Assembly (NCBI GenBank): GCA_021789355.1
Contig: JAJYJR010000353.1
Coordinates: 1 to 6,344 of the forward strand
From: Chloroflexota bacterium
GTDB taxonomy: Bacteria > Chloroflexota > Limnocylindria > Limnocylindrales > CSP1-4
Length of the DNA: 6,344 bases
Direction of reading: 5' to 3'
Numbering within the stretch: position 1 is the stretch's first letter; the number at the start of each line of letters is the position of its first letter. The translations under genes were made by a program, and so were the position numbers. This document shows positions 1 through 6,344 of this stretch, one piece after another. A model generated the notes under the pieces. The model was not told the origin of the DNA. It ran no database searches and saw nothing but the letters and a program-made list of their open reading frames with translations.

Positions 1-2
1 TG

Positions 3-15
3 AGGAGGTTGATTG
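3..15 (+). promoter_or_regulatory. Ribosome binding site and TTG start of the portal gene
   Basis: A perfect AGGAGG (3-8) lies four bases before TTG at 13-15. TGA at 1-3 is an in-frame stop just upstream, and no ATG or GTG precedes the TTG, so this fixes the start. The spacing is slightly short but the Shine-Dalgarno match is complete. The TGA may also end the preceding gene, whose body is outside the window. Confidence 0.8.
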
Positions 16-2946
16 GCTGATCCGCTCGCCATCGCGCGCCTGCGGGCCATCGAGAAGCAGCAGCAGTCGCAGCCCGACCCCGGGCTGATGGGCTGGACCG
101 CGCCCGCCGGGATGCAGCCGTATTCCGGCTACTCCGGCTGGGTCAGCGGCCGCCCCGTCGGCCCGGCCCTGCCGCGGCCGTGGGACACCTTCCTGTCTGG
201 GGCGTTCGGCCCGTTCATGCCGATCCTGCCCATGCCGCTCGACCAGCCCGCCGAGGGCGGCTCGGGTCGCCCCGCTCCGCGGCGCTGGCAGTACCCCGTG
301 GGCTGGAACCTCCCCATCGGGCAGCCCGGCAGCGAGGGGCTGACGCTGGCCGCGTTCCAGACCCTGCGCTCGCTGGCCCAGCGGTACTCGACCCTGTGGG
401 GGATGCTCGACGTGCGGGTGCGCGAGCTGGTCGGGCTGGACTGGGACGTGGGGCCGACGCGCGACGCACAGCAGGTCGCCAAGTCGGACAAGGGCGTGGC
501 GAAGGATCAGGCGGCGCGCGCCAAGCAGGTCGCCGACTGGTTCCGCTGGCACATCGACCCGAACTACACCGACGGGTTCCAGAGCTGGTTCACCGCGGCG
601 CTGTGGGATCAGTTCGTGATGGACGCGGTGGCCGTCCACCCGCTTCCGACGCGGGTACCGGGCAAGGGGCTGTTCGGGAGCGGGCTGGCGCACTGGGAGC
701 TGCTGGACGCGGCGACCATCCGCCCGCTGGTGGACGAGCGCGGCGCGCTGCCGCTGCCGCCCGCGGTGGCCTACCAGCAGTACCTGTGGGGCGTGCCCCG
801 CGTGGACATGATGCAGGTGCTCGCGGTGGGGGACGCCGACGAGGCGGACGCGCTGATGGAGGCGGGCGGGCTCCACGCGGACCTCGACGACGCCGACCCG
901 GACGGCGCGTACCGCATGGATCAGCTCCACTACTGGCGCCAGACGCCGTGGACGAACACGCCCTACGGCCTGTCGCCCGTGGCCGCCTCGCTGCTGCCCA
1001 TCGTGATCGGGCTGCAGCGGCAAGTGTGGCTGAACGACTACTGGAGCGAGGGCACCATCCCCGGCGTGTTCGTGGTGGCCGGCCCGGCGTACGCCACGGC
1101 CACGCAGCAGCTCCAGCTCCAGAACAGCCTCAACTCGCTGGCGGGCGACGTGGCGTGGAAGCACCGCGTCATCGTGCTGCCGCCGGACAGCAAGGCGCTG
1201 CCGCAGAAGGACCTCAGCTTCAGCAAGGACGTCGACCTCTCGATCATCGAGTACCTGTACCCGGTGCTCCACGTCATGCCGCAGGAGATCGGCCAGATGC
1301 CGGGCGGGCGCACCTCCGGGCTGGGCGGCTCGTCGGCCTCGCAGGAGATGATGGACGCCACGGTGCGCCAGCGCACCCGCCCCGACCGCAAGGTGTGGAA
1401 GCAGCGCTTCGACGCGCTGATCCAGCAGGGGTTCGGGCAGGCCGATCTGGAGTGGAAGTGGGTCGAGTTCGAGGAGCAGGAGGACGCGGAGAAGAAGGCG
1501 GCGGCGGAGGCCAGCGAGATCGGCCACGGCCAGAAGACCATCGATCAGGTCATCGTCGACAACGGCGGCGACCCGTGGGGCCTGCCGCTCACCAGCACCC
1601 CGATCTTCGTCATGGGGACCGGCATCATCCCGCTCGACCCGGAGGTCACGGCGCCCGCCCCCATCGCCCCCGGCGGCACGGTCCCCGGCGCCCCGGCGGG
1701 CGGGAGCGACGCGGAGCCGAACGCCCCCAGCGGGGCGCCCGCTGGAACCGCGCCACAGACCCGAGAACCGGCCGTAGCGCCGTCGAAGCCCCCGGAGCGG
1801 TCTGGTACCCCATCCGAGGGTGAGGGCACGCAGGGCGACGGCCCTACGCCGTCACCGTCGGACGCCGGGTCCTCGGCCAGCAAGCTCTCGCTGGCCGACG
1901 TAGTGAAGTGGCGCATCCGCTACAAGGGCAAGAAGCTCCCCAGCACGATCCACGGGTACCTGCTGCGCTCGTACCCCGAGGATCAGGTGAAGTGGGCGGC
2001 CGACGACCGCATCGACTGGCGGATGGAGCCGCACGTCAAGCTCGACGACATCAACTGGAGGCGGCGGCCGGGCGGACGCAACCCCGAGAAGGAGGCGGAG
2101 ATCGCGGACTCGCTGGCGCGCGGGGCCACGATGGACCCCATCGTCGTCTGCGAGTTCGCGTCGAAGGGCGTCTACAACCGCGCCGGGCTGACGGTGGCGG
2201 ACGGCTACCACCGCACGGGCGGGGCCGACAAGGCGGGCTGGAAGGACGTGCCCGCGTTCGTCGGGACGAACGTGCCGGACGAGTACCGCGACCGCATCCG
2301 GGGCTCGATGCAGGACGAGTCCGCGTCGGTCAGCGGGAAGGCCCAGCTCGCGGAGCTGGCGGTGCTGCGGCGCTACGCCAAGGCCGGGCGCGACGTGACG
2401 AACTTCGTCACGTCGGCCCTGACCCCGGAGCAGGTCGAGCTGTTCGCGGGGGACGCGGCGATCCGCGACGCCGACCGGGCGTTCCTCACCTCCGCCTCGA
2501 TCCTCGCGGGACGGGACCTCTCGGGCATGACGGTCGAGCAGGCCCACAAGGCAGCGCGTCAGTCACTCGACAAGGACTTCGCCGTGTCGTCTCCGGTCGC
2601 GTCCGGGCTGGCTCCGTTCGACCTTGAGGGCGCGGCCCCCAACGCCGAGGCCCCGCACCCGACGCGCTGTCGGCGCTGCGGGACGCCGCTGCTGGGATCG
2701 CCCGACGTGCCGATCAGCGAGGCGGCGGTCGGGCTGTGCGGCGACTGTCAGGTTGCGGAGGCGACCGGCACTCCCATCCCGACGGACAAGGGCCTGCTGG
2801 CGGGTCACGGCACGGCGCCCATCGGCCAGCACTCGGACGTGATCACCGAGAGCCCGTTCTACCCGGCCGAGAAGTCGGCGGACCTGCTGGCGCTGATCGA
2901 CGTGGAGCTGGCGCGGCGCGGCGTCGACCTCACGAAGCTGGCATGA
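13..2946 (+). CDS. Phage portal protein with C-terminal ParB-like and zinc-ribbon extension
   Basis: Portal proteins form the dodecameric ring at one capsid vertex through which DNA is packaged and ejected. Residues about 90-540 look like a portal core: an N-terminal segment ending GLDWDVGP (141-148), the PYGLSPVAASLLPIV stretch (317-331), the following long helix with a conserved-looking WLNDYW (339-344), and the HVMPQEIGQMPGGRTSGLGGSS region (420-440) with the helical stem after it. Residues 545-620 are a Pro/Gly/Ser-rich linker. Residues about 625-760 resemble a ParB/sulfiredoxin fold (DGYHR at 730-734), 765-850 are helical, and Cys886, Cys889, Cys909 and Cys912 form a zinc ribbon. At 977 aa it is roughly twice a typical portal. 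The start is TTG at 13, supported by AGGAGG and an upstream in-frame stop. Its TGA overlaps the next gene's ATG, implying translational coupling. The portal assignment is confident; the role of the extension is unknown. Confidence 0.85.
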   Translation: MADPLAIARLRAIEKQQQSQPDPGLMGWTAPAGMQPYSGYSGWVSGRPVGPALPRPWDTFLSGAFGPFMPILPMPLDQPAEGGSGRPAPRRWQYPVGWNLPIGQPGSEGLTLAAFQTLRSLAQRYSTLWGMLDVRVRELVGLDWDVGPTRDAQQVAKSDKGVAKDQAARAKQVADWFRWHIDPNYTDGFQSWFTAALWDQFVMDAVAVHPLPTRVPGKGLFGSGLAHWELLDAATIRPLVDERGALPLPPAVAYQQYLWGVPRVDMMQVLAVGDADEADALMEAGGLHADLDDADPDGAYRMDQLHYWRQTPWTNTPYGLSPVAASLLPIVIGLQRQVWLNDYWSEGTIPGVFVVAGPAYATATQQLQLQNSLNSLAGDVAWKHRVIVLPPDSKALPQKDLSFSKDVDLSIIEYLYPVLHVMPQEIGQMPGGRTSGLGGSSASQEMMDATVRQRTRPDRKVWKQRFDALIQQGFGQADLEWKWVEFEEQEDAEKKAAAEASEIGHGQKTIDQVIVDNGGDPWGLPLTSTPIFVMGTGIIPLDPEVTAPAPIAPGGTVPGAPAGGSDAEPNAPSGAPAGTAPQTREPAVAPSKPPERSGTPSEGEGTQGDGPTPSPSDAGSSASKLSLADVVKWRIRYKGKKLPSTIHGYLLRSYPEDQVKWAADDRIDWRMEPHVKLDDINWRRRPGGRNPEKEAEIADSLARGATMDPIVVCEFASKGVYNRAGLTVADGYHRTGGADKAGWKDVPAFVGTNVPDEYRDRIRGSMQDESASVSGKAQLAELAVLRRYAKAGRDVTNFVTSALTPEQVELFAGDAAIRDADRAFLTSASILAGRDLSGMTVEQAHKAARQSLDKDFAVSSPVASGLAPFDLEGAAPNAEAPHPTRCRRCGTPLLGSPDVPISEAAVGLCGDCQVAEATGTPIPTDKGLLAGHGTAPIGQHSDVITESPFYPAEKSADLLALIDVELARRGVDLTKLA
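1885..2292 (+). other. ParB/Srx-like module within the portal protein
   Basis: This is a domain, not a separate gene: residues about 625-760. The order LDDINWRRRP, EKEAEIADSLARGATMDPIVV, then VADGYHRTGGADKAGWKDVPAFVG resembles the ParB N-terminal/sulfiredoxin fold, in which a G-x-x-R loop binds nucleotide or phosphate; here the loop reads DGYHR. Such domains can be DNA-binding CTPases, nucleases or phosphotransferases, and the sequence does not say which. It is joined to the portal core by a low-complexity linker, as expected for a separately folded appendage. Confidence 0.6.
2662..2754 (+). other. Zinc ribbon (CxxC-19-CxxC) near the portal C-terminus
   Basis: Residues 884-914 contain RCRRCG and LCGDC, two CxxC knuckles (Cys886/889 and Cys909/912) separated by 19 residues. 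This is the usual spacing and context of a small zinc ribbon or rubredoxin-like knuckle. It follows the ParB-like and helical regions and probably binds nucleic acid or protein, but nothing identifies the partner. Confidence 0.6.
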
Positions 2947-5858
2947 TCGCGAGCCTCCCCACCGAGACGCTGCTGGAAGTGCGGCGACTGGTGGCATCGG
3001 GCGACCTGCTCGGGGCACGCGCGGCGCTGGTCAAGTACTCCGACGACCAGCCGCGGGACGAGGACGGGAGGTTTGCATCGGGTGGGGAGGGAGGCGGTAG
3101 TGCGCCAGCCGGGCTCGGCAAACCGCTTGAGGGTCCTCAGCCAAGACCGATCTCGTTCCGTTCGCGCAACGCCGCGAATGATGCGGTGCGTTCGGCCTAT
3201 CACAATGTCTTGCCAGAGGCGCAGCGCGGCTACAGCGACGAGGTCAGCGAGCAGCTCCATGACATGTCCGCCAAGGGGCTCGGTGGAGCGCTGAAGGACA
3301 ACGAGGAATGGAAGGCCCAGCTCGGCTCCAAGACATCTGAGGATCAGGCGCGTGCACTGGTGAAGCACTGGGCTGAGACATCCGGTGACCATTCTGCGTC
3401 TGCCATTGCTATGCAACAGGCGGCTGAGCGCGAGTTTGGGCTGAAGGGTGTGGCTCGTCCATGGGCTCAGGCGATGCAGGACGAGGCCGGAGCGAGACCA
3501 GAAGGCAAAGCCGACCAGGTCTTCCTCCGCGAGATGTACAACCAGACGCAGGAAGAGCTGAAGTCCAAGGGCGTCGAAGGCATGTATCTGTACCGCGGTT
3601 CCCGCATGGACGACAAGAGCAGTGGACGATATGACGGACACCGGGACAAGGGGTGGATGCGCCTCCAGCCGCTCAGCTCCTTCTCCTTCGACCCGAGCAC
3701 GGCCTACGGGTACACCCAGGGATTCGAGGCGCATGGCAGGTACGGACGGATAGACGGTGTCTGGGTGCCGCGCGAGCGCATCCTCTCGACGCCACGGACC
3801 GGCTTTGGTGGGGGGTCACAACAGGAGATCGTCGTACTGGGAGGTACGTACCAGACGTCGTACTTGGGCTGGTACGGGAAGTCTGGGCCGGGGCTTGAAG
3901 AGTACTTCTCGACTGGCGGACCGCCGCAGATGAAGAAGGCCGATCCGGCCGGGCTAGCATTCGGGCCCGATGATGATCTCGATAATGCCGACTGGCCGAA
4001 GCGCATGCCCGTTGTGAATGCTCAGATGGCTGCACTCCACGAACAGCGCGGTTCCACCACCAAGGCCGCCAAGATCATCGTCCTGCGCTCCGGCGGCAAG
4101 CGCCGTGCCGCCTCGCTCGACCCCATCGTGGCCCGCCTTCGCGACGGGTTGCAGGCACTCATCGACGAGCACATGCCGCAGGTCGCGAAGGGCGGCCCCC
4201 TCACCCTCACCGACGAGGCCAAGAAGCTCCTGCTGGCGGCCTATGCCGAGGCGATGCGGGCGGGCTGGGACGACAGCGGAGCCGAGGACGCGGGCTGGGA
4301 CGACGAGCAGGTGGCGACCGCCGCGGCCAAGCACGGCTCGCTGATCGCGGACGCGGTGGCGGCGCTCGGGGCGGCGCTGCTGACCGGGGCCGTCTCGGCG
4401 GCGATGGCCGACGCCCGCATGGGGACCTACGCCGCCAGCCTGAACCCGGTGTACGAGCAGGGCTTCGCCTCCGGCGTGCGGACGCAGGGAGAGATCAACC
4501 GCGTGACGTGGCGGACGCAGGAGGACGGCGTCGTCTGCGACCTCTGCGACGAGCGCGACGGCAAGATGTGGTTCGGGGACGACGAGCACCCCTATCCCGG
4601 CGACGGTGGGTTCGGCGGGCCGGTGTGCGAGGGCGGCTGGAACTGCTTTGCGCCGGGGACCGAGGTATCAGGCCGCTTCGTCAGCGCGATGCGGTCGCGC
4701 TATCGCGGGGAGATCATCGAACTGCGAACGGCGGCGGGGCACCGGCTGGCCGTCACCCCGAACCACCCCGTAGCCACGCCACGCGGCTTCGTCGCGGCGT
4801 ATCGACTCCGCGAGGGCGGCGAGGTACTGGCACAAGCCGTCCACGTCGACGTGAGTTCGGGCGATGACGCGCACGACCGTCCAGCTCCCGTCGAGCAGGT
4901 CCTCGAACTTCTGGAGCACGGAACGGCCGCGTGGCGCGGGGCGTTTTACCCCGCCCGTGAAGATCTCCACGGCGACGCGTTCGGCGTCGAGGGCGACGTC
5001 TACGTTGTAGGGACCGACCGCCATCTGCTCGACGACGGAGAGGCCGTAGCGCCGCAGGGCCTCCGCCACTTCCGCCTCGTATCGCCCGACCCCGCTGCGG
5101 GCACGCTGGCGGCCCTCGCTGCGTCGCAGAGCCTCCCCCGCCTCGACGACGGTCCCTCGTCGCGCCTTCCACGCGGCCCGGAGCAGGCGGTCAGGGGACT
5201 CGCCGCCAGCCCAGCGGGCAGTCAGGCCCGCGCTGCGGTTGCGGACCGTGACACCAGCGCGTCGGAGCACGGCGTTGATGGCCGTGCGGTTCACGCCGTA
5301 GGACTCCGCGAGCACCTTCCCCGACTCGCCCGCGAGGTACCGACGGACGACTTCCTCGGCGGGGAGTCGGTCGCTAGCCCTGTAGCGGTGCTTCCAAGCG
5401 CCGTACATGCGGTCGGACCGGCTGCGGAGTGGGACGTGCGCCTCTCGCAGCCAGCGGGTCACGACGTAGACGCGGACGCCGCGTTCGCCTGCGAGATGCT
5501 GCGCCGATTCCCCGGCCTCGTAGCGGCGGATCAGATCATCGAGGTCCGCCGGGGCTGGATGGACGGGCATGTCTACGATCTCGGCTCCGAGGGGGGCTGG
5601 CTCGTTGCTGGAGGCATTATAGCGAGTAACTGCCGGTGCGAGCTGGAGTACGAGCTGGTACCCCTGCCGGACTCAGCGGACAGCGCCGCCGCGGCGCTGT
5701 CGGACCTCACGACCCTCTCTACGCCCGAGCTGCTGCGGCTCCGCGACCGGCTCACGAAGGCCGAGTGGGACCCGAGCGAGCACCCGCGCGACGAGCACGG
5801 CGAGTTCACGTCGGGCGGAGGCGGGTTCGCGGCGGAGCTGTTCCAACGCGAGTCGTAG
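2943..5858 (+). CDS. Mu gpF-like minor head protein, intein-containing, with fused ADP-ribosyltransferase-like domain
   Basis: The precursor is 971 aa; splicing would leave 642 aa. The ATG at 2943 overlaps the portal stop (ATGA). The frame is open further upstream, but only as out-of-frame portal sequence. Order: residues 1-48, a helix plus a PRDEDGRFASGG motif; about 70-305, an ADP-ribosyltransferase-like cassette; about 360-567, the gpF-like minor head region ending in a Cys-rich segment (VCDLC at 531-535, Cys562); 568-896, the intein; 897-971, C-extein beginning CRCE and ending with a second motif, HPRDEHGEFTSGG (947-959). Ligated exteins give GGWNCRCE, the NCRC-type metal-site motif of the Mu gpF family. 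Minor head proteins attach at or near the portal and help head assembly, which fits the preceding gene. The mosaic structure and the GC drop over the ART region suggest modular acquisition. Family assignment rests on the Cys motifs and gene order. Confidence 0.8.
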   Translation: MIASLPTETLLEVRRLVASGDLLGARAALVKYSDDQPRDEDGRFASGGEGGGSAPAGLGKPLEGPQPRPISFRSRNAANDAVRSAYHNVLPEAQRGYSDEVSEQLHDMSAKGLGGALKDNEEWKAQLGSKTSEDQARALVKHWAETSGDHSASAIAMQQAAEREFGLKGVARPWAQAMQDEAGARPEGKADQVFLREMYNQTQEELKSKGVEGMYLYRGSRMDDKSSGRYDGHRDKGWMRLQPLSSFSFDPSTAYGYTQGFEAHGRYGRIDGVWVPRERILSTPRTGFGGGSQQEIVVLGGTYQTSYLGWYGKSGPGLEEYFSTGGPPQMKKADPAGLAFGPDDDLDNADWPKRMPVVNAQMAALHEQRGSTTKAAKIIVLRSGGKRRAASLDPIVARLRDGLQALIDEHMPQVAKGGPLTLTDEAKKLLLAAYAEAMRAGWDDSGAEDAGWDDEQVATAAAKHGSLIADAVAALGAALLTGAVSAAMADARMGTYAASLNPVYEQGFASGVRTQGEINRVTWRTQEDGVVCDLCDERDGKMWFGDDEHPYPGDGGFGGPVCEGGWNCFAPGTEVSGRFVSAMRSRYRGEIIELRTAAGHRLAVTPNHPVATPRGFVAAYRLREGGEVLAQAVHVDVSSGDDAHDRPAPVEQVLELLEHGTAAWRGAFYPAREDLHGDAFGVEGDVYVVGTDRHLLDDGEAVAPQGLRHFRLVSPDPAAGTLAALAASQSLPRLDDGPSSRLPRGPEQAVRGLAASPAGSQARAAVADRDTSASEHGVDGRAVHAVGLREHLPRLAREVPTDDFLGGESVASPVAVLPSAVHAVGPAAEWDVRLSQPAGHDVDADAAFACEMLRRFPGLVAADQIIEVRRGWMDGHVYDLGSEGGWLVAGGIIASNCRCELEYELVPLPDSADSAAAALSDLTTLSTPELLRLRDRLTKAEWDPSEHPRDEHGEFTSGGGGFAAELFQRES
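3042..3086 (+). repeat. First PRDExGxFxSGG motif (N-terminal copy)
   Basis: Residues 34-48 of the minor head protein read DDQPRDEDGRFASGG. The related DPSEHPRDEHGEFTSGG lies at the C-terminus (5769-5819). Both follow a leucine-rich helix (PTETLLEVRRLV and STPELLRLRDRL), so the repeated unit is helix plus motif. It is a protein-level repeat, not a long DNA repeat. I recall such motifs as common in phage head proteins at module boundaries; the function is not established from sequence. Confidence 0.65.
3150..3857 (+). other. ADP-ribosyltransferase-like (R-S-E type) domain within the minor head protein
   Basis: Residues about 70-305. A helical N-lobe (WAETSGDHSASAIAMQQAA, 143-161) precedes the catalytic order known for R-S-E ADP-ribosyltransferases: Arg218 in LYRGS, the Ser-rich strand LSSFSFD (244-250; STS-like), and Gln293-Gln294-Glu295 followed by the strand IVVLGG (a QxE form of the ExE motif). 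VPRERILS (275-282) sits between them, as I recall for phage-head ART domains. The reaction would transfer ADP-ribose from NAD to a protein target. T4 Alt is a head-packaged ART injected with the DNA, and a similar role is inferred here. GC is lower than the flanks: 33/60 at 3361-3420 against 49/60 at 4321-4380. Activity and target are unknown. Confidence 0.7.
4260..4304 (+). repeat. 15-base direct repeat, 30-base period
   Basis: GCGGGCTGGGACGAC occurs at 4260-4274 and again at 4290-4304. The 30-base period is ten codons, so the protein carries AGWDDSGAED followed by AGWDDEQVAT. It looks like a local in-frame duplication within the minor head gene, since diverged between the copies. Confidence 0.7.
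4668..5570 (-). CDS. Putative homing endonuclease (tandem HTH plus Vsr/PD-(D/E)XK-like nuclease), antisense inside the intein
   Basis: The protein is 300 aa and lies entirely within the intein on the opposite strand, in exact codon register. ATG at 5570 is the only start codon in the open stretch upstream, which runs back to about 5670. Residues about 9-46 and 70-107 are two similar helix-turn-helix units, each with RRYxAGES near its start, followed by NRSAGLTARWAGGES (111-125) as a possible third, degenerate unit. The nuclease core includes Glu165 in a helix before GLSVVEQ, then GPYNVDVAL (186-194) with Asp191, and VAVEIFTGG (199-207) with Glu202. QKFEDLLDGSWTVVRVI (220-236) matches the Arg/Lys-rich helix and strand that I recall closing this fold. 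The tail ends YGVVRGDGQPV. Such enzymes cut intein-less alleles to drive homing. At the position where related enzymes carry Trp-His there is Val-Lys, so activity is uncertain. Openness alone is weak evidence at this GC; the motifs carry the call. Confidence 0.8.
   Translation of the reverse strand: MPVHPAPADLDDLIRRYEAGESAQHLAGERGVRVYVVTRWLREAHVPLRSRSDRMYGAWKHRYRASDRLPAEEVVRRYLAGESGKVLAESYGVNRTAINAVLRRAGVTVRNRSAGLTARWAGGESPDRLLRAAWKARRGTVVEAGEALRRSEGRQRARSGVGRYEAEVAEALRRYGLSVVEQMAVGPYNVDVALDAERVAVEIFTGGVKRPAPRGRSVLQKFEDLLDGSWTVVRVIARTHVDVDGLCQYLAALAESIRRDEAAWRGYGVVRGDGQPVPRRRSQFDDLPAIARPHRADEAA
5616..5621 (-). promoter_or_regulatory. Candidate -10 element (TATAAT) for the antisense endonuclease
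   Basis: On the minus strand CTATAATGCC contains a perfect sigma70-type -10 hexamer, 45 bases upstream of the endonuclease ATG and outside its coding region. It falls in the sense codons for Ile-Ile of GGIIASN, which read ATT-ATA, both unusual in a gene of this GC. I see no TTGACA-like -35 at 16-18 bases spacing and no complete extended TGn. A weak GGAG lies 14 bases before the ATG. Confidence 0.45.
5769..5819 (+). repeat. Second PRDExGxFxSGG motif (C-terminal copy)
   Basis: Residues 943-959 read DPSEHPRDEHGEFTSGG and match the N-terminal copy at 3042-3086, including the preceding helix. The protein ends only 12 residues later, so this copy sits where a C-terminal cargo could be attached but none is. 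Confidence 0.65.
5831..5848 (+). promoter_or_regulatory. Ribosome binding site and possible ACG start of the last gene
   Basis: GGCGGAG at 5831-5837 is followed by eight bases and then ACG at 5846-5848. The protein after it begins RVVVPH, a typical first beta strand, and there is no ATG, GTG or TTG in this frame between 5768 and the first conserved segment. A one-base change (ACG for ATG) would give an ordinary start overlapping the upstream stop at 5856-5858 by 13 bases. Confidence 0.45.
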
Positions 5859-6344
5859 TCCCCCACGCTGCCAACCCCCGCGCGTCCTCACCGGGGCTGC
5901 GGCCGGAGGTAGTCGCGGCGCTGGAGGCGGACGGCTGGCGCCCCGAGGTGGTGGACGTGTCCGCCAGCGAGACGGCATACCACGACCTGCTGGCGCGGAC
6001 GTGGGCGGACGGCGCGGGCTTCGTTGTCATCGAGCACGACATCGTGGTCTACCCCGGCGCAATCCGAGCGATGCTCGACTGTCCCGAGCCGTGGTGCGTG
6101 ACGGTCTACCGCTGCAACAGCGAGTACGACGGGTACCTCGGCTGCGTGCGGTTCTCCGACGCGCTAGTGCGGGCCGAGCCGGATGCGCTCGACGCGGCCG
6201 GGCGGCTGACCTACGGGCCTCCGCCGCGCTACTGGGGCTGGGTGGACAACCGGCTGGGGCAGGTGCTCACCGACCGGGGCTACCGCAAGCACCGCCACTG
6301 GCCGGCCGTCACGCACCTGCGGGCGTACCCGCAGGCGGTGGCGT
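5846..6344 (+). CDS. Glycosyltransferase-like phage protein, 3' end outside window
   Basis: An open frame runs from the end of the minor head gene to the right edge with no stop, giving about 166 residues. From ACG at 5846 it reads (M)RVVVPHAANPRASSPG, then RPEVVAALEADGW, SASETAYHDLLARTWADG, GFVVIEHDIVVYPGA, LDCPEPWCVTVY, GYLGCVRFS and YWGWVDNRLGQVLTDRGY. The strand followed by Glu63-His64-Asp65 resembles the DxD-like metal/nucleotide-sugar site of GT-A glycosyltransferases, and the CPEPWC segment matches phage proteins I recall but cannot name. It could modify capsid or tail proteins, phage DNA or a host component. The start is uncertain: GTG at 5765 is possible but would add an Arg-rich, unlikely N-terminus, and a GTG near 5948 would remove the first strand. 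It overlaps gene 2, suggesting coupled translation. Confidence 0.6.

Follow-up and report, generated by a model that had tools for sequence, protein, structure and literature searches.

A predicted homing endonuclease gene antisense, codon for codon, to its host intein in a phage head gene

Background

Classical mobile inteins carry a LAGLIDADG or HNH endonuclease in frame, normally as part of the intein polypeptide. Another arrangement is said to have been described by Dassa in 2009, split-intein "fractured genes" accompanied by a new family of homing endonuclease whose separate gene lies between the split intein genes. We analysed a 6,344 nucleotide stretch from a Chloroflexota bacterium (GenBank assembly GCA_021789355.1, contig JAJYJR010000353.1, positions 1 to 6,344, called the window below), in which a phage minor head protein gene contains an intein and in which an open reading frame (ORF) on the strand opposite that intein is predicted to encode its homing endonuclease.

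Two described systems come close to parts of this arrangement. I-Bth0305I, a homing endonuclease of the EDxHD or Vsr-like kind, belongs to a phage group I intron (PMC3943268), and some group I introns in myxomycete rDNA carry a homing endonuclease gene in antisense, Didymium I-DsqI and Dir.S956-2 (PMC9548176). Inteins have been noted before in the head genes of Salmonella, Escherichia and metagenomic phages, one of them (0.8 kb) being called a homing endonuclease of a minor head gene, and an antisense gene is not mentioned in the accessible parts of those accounts (PMC8425127, PMC11162368, PMC7468147). PMC9957025 contains none of five strand terms looked for in it. Searches of an open-access library turned up no intein described with an antisense endonuclease gene, which is not proof that none exists.

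We read the window element as a probably mobile intein within a Mu-F-type head gene of a phage. Its predicted homing endonuclease would be encoded by a separate, conserved gene of the opposite strand that overlaps the intein codon for codon, and we put the probability of this reading at roughly 0.88. It is built on two open frames in register, strand-specific selection, avoidance of sense stops and codon bias at the antisense start and Shine-Dalgarno sites, as well as on exact empty alleles in relatives and different elements at one site in near-identical hosts.

The intein and the ORF opposite it

The features of the element are as follows (HTH, helix-turn-helix; omega was estimated for each reading strand).

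2943-5858, plus strand: minor head protein gene with the intein, its sense ORF uninterrupted (PHROG head protein phrog_15127, E=3.3e-22)
4644-5630, plus strand: intein of 329 amino acids, Cys1 (CFAPGTEV) to Asn329 (TIGR01445 intein_Nterm, E=2.9e-5)
4755-4769, plus strand: Hint block B, TPNHP; its antisense shadow contributes to the predicted endonuclease C-terminal YGVVRG
4965-5006, plus strand: conserved sense motif LHGDAFGVEGDVYV; omega in its surroundings 0.23 antisense versus 0.71 sense
5568-5582, plus strand: Hint block F, HVYDL, CATGTCTACGATCTC; antisense GAG-ATC-GTA-GAC-ATG, a Shine-Dalgarno-like GAG and a start codon
5570-4668, minus strand: antisense ORF for the predicted endonuclease, 300 amino acids, codon register shared with the intein
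5418-5546, minus strand: first HTH, residues 9-51 (HTH_58 at 12-51; helices 10-18, 23-30 and 34-43)
5238-5363, minus strand: second HTH, residues ~70-111 (weak HTH-family matches; helices 71-79, 84-91 and 95-104)
4794-5087, minus strand: predicted Vsr-like PD-(D/E)XK nuclease domain, residues 162-259 (conserved residues and predicted fold)
5076-5078, 4998-5000, 4965-4967 and 4908-4910, minus strand: nuclease residues Glu165, Asp191, Glu202 and Arg221, respectively

The plus strand shows the hallmarks of an intein, an N-terminal nucleophile, a block B TxxH and a C-terminal Asn then Cys (Cys+1 is at 5631-5633, right after Asn329), and C1, T38, P39, N40, H41 and N329 are invariant or at least 90% conserved in the intein alignment (A6). 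The TIGR01445 score barely exceeds the family cut-off; in the predicted sense structure the two Hint halves have a predicted local distance difference test score (pLDDT) mostly above 90. The intein is predicted to be spliced out of the head protein. An earlier note on this DNA, made from the letters alone, held that the sense centre contains no recognisable endonuclease, and profile searches of the sense intein and of its centre indeed gave no endonuclease match; 37 sense inteins match four Pfam families, none of them a nuclease family. The same note supposed that the Hint fold need not be interrupted in such an arrangement, which does not hold here, as a long stop-free sense insert still parts Hint-N and Hint-C.

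The antisense ORF spans 903 (stop included) of the intein's 987 bases and its codon boundaries coincide with those of the intein, so that Glu202 lies opposite sense CTC 4965-4967 (EDLH) and Asp191 opposite GTC 4998-5000 (GDVYVV); the intein coordinates, the overlap and the shared boundaries had been given in the earlier note and hold in the sequence. The Pfam search of the antisense protein returned HTH_58 (E=8.8e-7) and MTES_1575 REase (E=2e-4, under that family's gathering score). E165, Y188, N189, D191 and E202 are invariant, and R221 is at least 90% conserved, in 46 antisense sequences. The predicted structure (pLDDT 87) has fold matches to 3r3p, 1vsr, 1cw0 and 3hrl, and its best Foldseek match is the homing endonuclease I-Bth0305I (E 7e-3). 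The tandem HTH units and Vsr/PD-(D/E)XK-like core named in the earlier note are supported by HTH_58, MTES_1575 and these folds. The ORF probably encodes a homing endonuclease that would cut the empty allele, and the conserved sense motif LHGDAFGVEGDVYV is mainly the shadow of its predicted active site.

The start of this ORF falls in a conserved part of the intein. In most loci the antisense start codon is opposite the block F His (HVYNL/HVYDL), and the block F Leu codon yields GAG or AAG upstream of it. Of 63 deduplicated matches, 51 have ATG opposite the His, 5 have GTG and 7 lack such a start, after 14 rows with block F off the pattern had been dropped from the start-codon test. The block F Leu is CTC or CTT in 52/59 (21.4 expected) and the His is CAT in 41/45 (19.8 expected; L004, L075 and L076 were left out of the His-codon and distance tests), counts that are less independent than they appear because the loci are related. 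From the start and the Leu and His codon bias it follows that block F doubles as the likely translation start of the antisense gene, and with a start codon and Shine-Dalgarno of its own, expression independent of the host gene is plausible.

Selection on the two strands

An open antisense frame alone is uninformative here, because the window is 71% guanine plus cytosine (GC) and the in-register frame opposite the intein's middle would be open by chance with P ~0.15; ORF length was for the same reason rejected as evidence, a GC-rich window being uninformative by itself. In the shared register sense position 1 is the antisense wobble position and sense position 3 the sense wobble, and substitutions were counted by position in 9 disjoint pairs picked by script from 48 candidates of 70-98.5% identity. 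At sense positions 1/2/3 Hint-N has 31/6/75 substitutions, the middle 334/60/158 and Hint-C 5/11/28, and in the middle position 1 exceeds position 3 in 9/9 pairs. Pooled Nei-Gojobori omega is 0.14 sense and 0.82 antisense in Hint-N, and 0.17 sense and 2.08 antisense in Hint-C; constraint in both frames across relatives had been the earlier note's own proposed check, and in the middle it comes out at omega 0.83 for the sense and 0.18 for the antisense frame. The extein control, limited to the 5/9 pairs with exteins aligning >75%, gave positions 55/23/234, a sense omega of 0.09 and a shadow omega of 1.74. The protein-selected strand therefore flips twice within the element, from sense in Hint-N to antisense in the middle and back to sense in Hint-C.

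These position and omega tests, with the scarcity of antisense stops in relatives, lift the case for the antisense frame above chance. The middle lacks any antisense stop in 24 of the 25 loci of lowest GC (0.35-0.50), and for 22 of the 24 the chance P is <0.05. Sense codons that would read as antisense stops were observed once against 350.7 expected in 70 deduplicated loci, those with <150 extein codons having been dropped, and the antisense codons TTA, CTA and TCA, which would read as sense stops, occur 0 times in the middle against 288.7 expected from extein codon usage (61 deduplicated sequences, loci with too few extein Leu or Ser codons dropped). L038, in which both frames are broken, was left out of the substitution, omega, stop, start-codon and distance tests; the frameshifted L102, whose record is marked UNVERIFIED, was left out of all selection, stop, start and distance tests, and loci without a Hint-C match were left out of the omega, stop and codon tests.

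Spread of the arrangement

Scans of viral contigs with a single protein of either strand as query, and a blastn search of the window against phages, found no relatives. With tblastn against 50,697 phage records, 66 were matched by the antisense protein and 121 by the sense protein, and 17 of the matched records (L001-L017) were analysed in detail. In all 17 and in the window an antisense ORF lies within the sense gene in the same codon register, and it is annotated in 0/17 of the records. One of the 17 is an uncultured virus; the hosts of the rest are Gordonia, Mycobacterium, Rhodococcus, Pseudomonas, Vibrio, Idiomarinaceae, Cronobacter, Aggregatibacter, Escherichia and Salmonella, and the GC content of the 17 is 43-68%. 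In the virus Rctr197k (L004) the element sits in a cytidine/dCMP-deaminase gene (PF00383, E=4.4e-10), which the record labels a head morphogenesis protein, perhaps because of the intein. In the Rhodococcus phage REQ3 (L014) the antisense ORF is 181 amino acids from its presumed start and has no HTH domains, and the intein seems to start with Ala or Val, not Cys.

Because the 18-sequence alignment (A1) was too diverse, the contig scans used subgroup alignments of the antisense protein, which added 18 and 56 loci. A hidden Markov model scan of the resulting 92 loci placed the endonuclease opposite Hint-N and in register in 92/92 and found Hint-C in 89/92; Hint was found on the endonuclease's own strand in 0/92, so the classical in-frame arrangement does not occur among them. 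Seven more phage loci, chosen via a sense search, have the antisense arrangement in 7/7, six in register and L102 frameshifted, and it is in register in 7/7 genome contigs, which come from metagenome-assembled or other genomes of Actinobacteria, Firmicutes, Gemmatimonadales, Phaeospirillum, Rubellimicrobium, Solirubrobacterales and Scytonema. In the Scytonema contig (L109) the same gene contains, further upstream, a short intein that gives a second Hint-N match.

Since these searches had used the endonuclease region, the viral contigs were also searched with intein residues 1-62 alone (A7), which gave at least 589 confirmed relatives among 600 stretches. The best 80 of these, the closest and not a random draw, have the endonuclease antisense and in register in 80/80. 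Hint-C lies in the same ORF in 75 of them and was not found in the other 5; the final part of the antisense ORF reaches into the block with which they were found. Two of the loci, L158 and L168, break off inside the overlap with Hint-N, and the 78 that can be judged are antisense in 78/78. The in-register antisense arrangement is thus present in all judged loci, 92 + 7 + 78 = 177, many of them near-identical, or 171 without the six contigs that recur (L054/L116, L062/L117, L063/L170, L064/L160, L065/L166 and L081/L123). The earlier note's central claim, an endonuclease gene antisense to its carrier intein, is supported by the profiles, the predicted fold, this same placement in every judged relative and the flips of the selected strand.

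The E. coli genomes searched gave zero matches. Among plasmids there is one full-length relative, within a phage minor head gene, and six Streptomyces records match over no more than the N-terminal half. Also related to the antisense protein are five full-length metagenome proteins (P0001-P0005), known as proteins without genomic context. Two of them, P0002 (57% identity) and P0005 (48%), are named very-short-patch-repair endonuclease at their source; such ORFs on short contigs have therefore been predicted by some gene callers.

With a probability hardly lower than that of our reading of the window itself, these loci represent a widespread class of phage intein with a separate antisense endonuclease gene, in which block F serves as Shine-Dalgarno and start, the active site lies opposite HGD...VDVV and the linker is mainly a stop-free carrier. 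There may be hundreds of copies (at least 589 Hint-N relatives, of which the best 80 were examined), and they have probably gone unnoticed because annotation keeps only the long sense ORF.

Mobility and decay

The filled head gene of Escherichia phage Snoke matches 230 phage records, 58 of which hold at least 80% of the gene at one location, and many of the matches listed consist of two extein pieces without the intein. Four loci (L092-L095) have continuous exteins that lack exactly the 816-nucleotide intein at HPN|C; an empty allele of the window's own gene was searched for and not found, these exact empty alleles being those of relatives. In the Gordonia phages Sedona and Affeca the proteins before the site are 99% identical and the insertion site is the same, yet the Hint parts are just 37% identical and the endonucleases 34%, and in Snoke and KMB36 a near-identical gene holds two different inteins, each at a site of its own. 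In a Mantel-type test of 65 loci, rho was 0.39 for Hint-endonuclease, 0.34 for extein-endonuclease and 0.20 for extein-Hint distances, a covariation of Hint and endonuclease that may be taken as weak evidence for joint movement.

The antisense core is free of stops in 89/92 loci; L075 and L076 have one stop each with the sense frame intact, and L038 is broken in both frames. One of the best 80 Hint-N relatives, L155, has a stop in the core, and L121, L131 and L132 are shortened inteins (183-191 amino acids) that have lost part of the endonuclease with the sense frame intact. Inteins of this kind, antisense frame broken and sense frame kept, were what the earlier note had thought would speak against it; they do occur (L075, L076 and L155, and the shortened L121, L131 and L132), but they are few, and their pattern is the one predicted for a homing cycle in which endonucleases decay.

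In the cycle that we propose, the plus strand would give one polypeptide of head protein, Hint-N, open linker and Hint-C, out of which the intein would be spliced. The minus strand, transcribed separately, would be read from the start opposite the block F His, behind the Shine-Dalgarno formed by block F, to give a product with two HTH domains and a Vsr-like PD-(D/E)XK nuclease. This nuclease would cut intein-free alleles at the insertion site (HPN|C of the head protein in many relatives), and the filled allele would then serve as repair template, so that the whole element would be copied and homing completed.

The window and its other genes

The window reads as a tailed-phage morphogenesis region, a portal gene followed by the minor head gene.

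13-2946, plus strand: portal gene, 977 amino acids (PHROG portal match, E=5.8e-31)

The C-terminal part of the portal protein (residues ~686-854) has a weak ParB-like match (E 0.005-0.012), and the gene is possibly a portal-ParB fusion. The Phage_Mu_F match of the window N-extein is weak (E=0.094) and is clear on the relatives L015 and L012 and the empty allele L092, and the window head gene is probably of the Mu-F type, as judged mainly via its relatives. The N-terminal part of the head gene (2946-4019, plus strand) also gave a weak DRAT ADP-ribosyltransferase match (E=0.023), under the family cut-off. An open frame at the window end (5867-6343, plus strand) had zero matches in the Pfam search.

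Alternative explanations

It is very improbable, and contradicted by the codon-position test, that the antisense ORF is a by-product, an open and similar-looking frame left by a sense intein domain (EDFHGDG...VDVV) conserved among GC-rich phages. In favour are the conservation of the sense motif, PHROG matches to the sense stretch and the window frame, which could be open by chance at the P ~0.15 given above; against this, middle substitutions of 334/60/158 favour sense position 1, omega is 0.18 antisense and 0.83 sense where an ordinary extein shadow frame has 1.74, 24/25 of the lowest-GC loci have no antisense stop in the middle (22 at chance P <0.05), and a tandem HTH plus Vsr-like fold at pLDDT 87 is not expected from a shadow frame. 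That the nuclease is real and past homing, domesticated for exclusion of rival phages or for regulation and kept in the intein, is improbable too, if less so. Its near-universal retention in the sampled loci is above what a decaying homing cycle might suggest, but the exact empty alleles, the divergent alleles at one site and the second site in a near-identical gene fit mobility, and a few decayed copies exist. Somewhat likelier than either, and still unlikely, is that both proteins function across the overlap, the sense linker being a conserved domain, for example for DNA recognition or as a splicing modulator. The middle sense omega of 0.83 is below the 1.74 of the extein shadow and below the 1.5-1.9 of a one-parameter antisense-only simulation, sense omega is 0.52 in one stretch, and residues 80-124 have pLDDT mostly 63-89. 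A simulation that allows separate tolerance at antisense positions 1 and 2, and no sense stops, however, gives a sense omega of 0.85-0.96 and position counts of, e.g., 308/55/147, near those observed, and sense residues 130-276 have pLDDT ~30. Because this model removed most of the need for it, we do not claim strong constraint on the sense linker. Residues 130-276 are predicted to be disordered, and most of the linker therefore looks like open filler, a carrier whose main duty would be to contain no stop.

Several points weigh against the reading of the element as an intein with an antisense endonuclease on an otherwise idle linker. Part of the sense linker may exceed filler, given the modelling of residues 80-124 (4881-5015, plus strand) and the omega of 0.52 sense and 0.34 antisense in the stretch just before the HGD motif (9 pairs plus 4 non-independent ones; two pairs lacking the anchor, L053 and L048, were skipped). 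The family consensus (A5) has GGGWH where the window reads TGGVKRPAP, without a His, which makes catalytic competence of the window nuclease uncertain, and the EDxHD histidine is not evident in the window antisense protein at the sequence level. The antisense protein has no Foldseek match at E <1e-3, which, as an absence from the structure library, we do not take as evidence. In L015 a scan for the sigma-70 consensus alone found no minus-strand promoter upstream of the antisense ORF, its single promoter-like site being on the sense strand. Finally, the loci are related by descent, so that the codon-bias and stop counts are not independent draws.

Comparison with known systems

If the reading of the element as an intein with an antisense endonuclease gene is correct, it is a natural antiparallel gene pair that shares up to ~900 bp in codon register, with the protein-selected strand switching twice in one element, and it occurs in phages across several bacterial phyla. 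The endonuclease would be separated from the splicing protein and could be made while the late head operon is off. The lack of annotation in all of L001-L017 suggests that antisense genes can be systematically missed.

With classical mobile inteins the window element has in common a Hint domain in which a long insert separates block B from the C-terminal blocks, and PI-MtuI and PI-PkoII are among the PDB matches; unlike theirs, its sense insert shows no endonuclease and is largely predicted to be disordered. Like the fractured-gene system reportedly described by Dassa, it pairs an endonuclease of this broad type with intein halves, but here the gene is antisense within a continuous intein. It shares with I-Bth0305I the Vsr-like PD-(D/E)XK fold, DNA-binding parts, a phage-borne location and the tie to a self-splicing element. 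The solved catalytic domain of I-Bth0305I (3r3p) is residues 167-263, and so a nuclease following the DNA-binding part may be common to both. I-Bth0305I sits, however, in an RNA intron (PMC3943268), whereas the window ORF is antisense within an intein. The Didymium introns likewise have their endonuclease gene on the strand opposite the splicing element, and they differ in being RNA introns of eukaryotic rDNA whose endonuclease gene has been inserted into a peripheral segment of the RNA (PMC9548176). An intein must be translated through the whole overlap, and both strands of the window element are therefore constrained codon by codon, unlike those of the Didymium introns.

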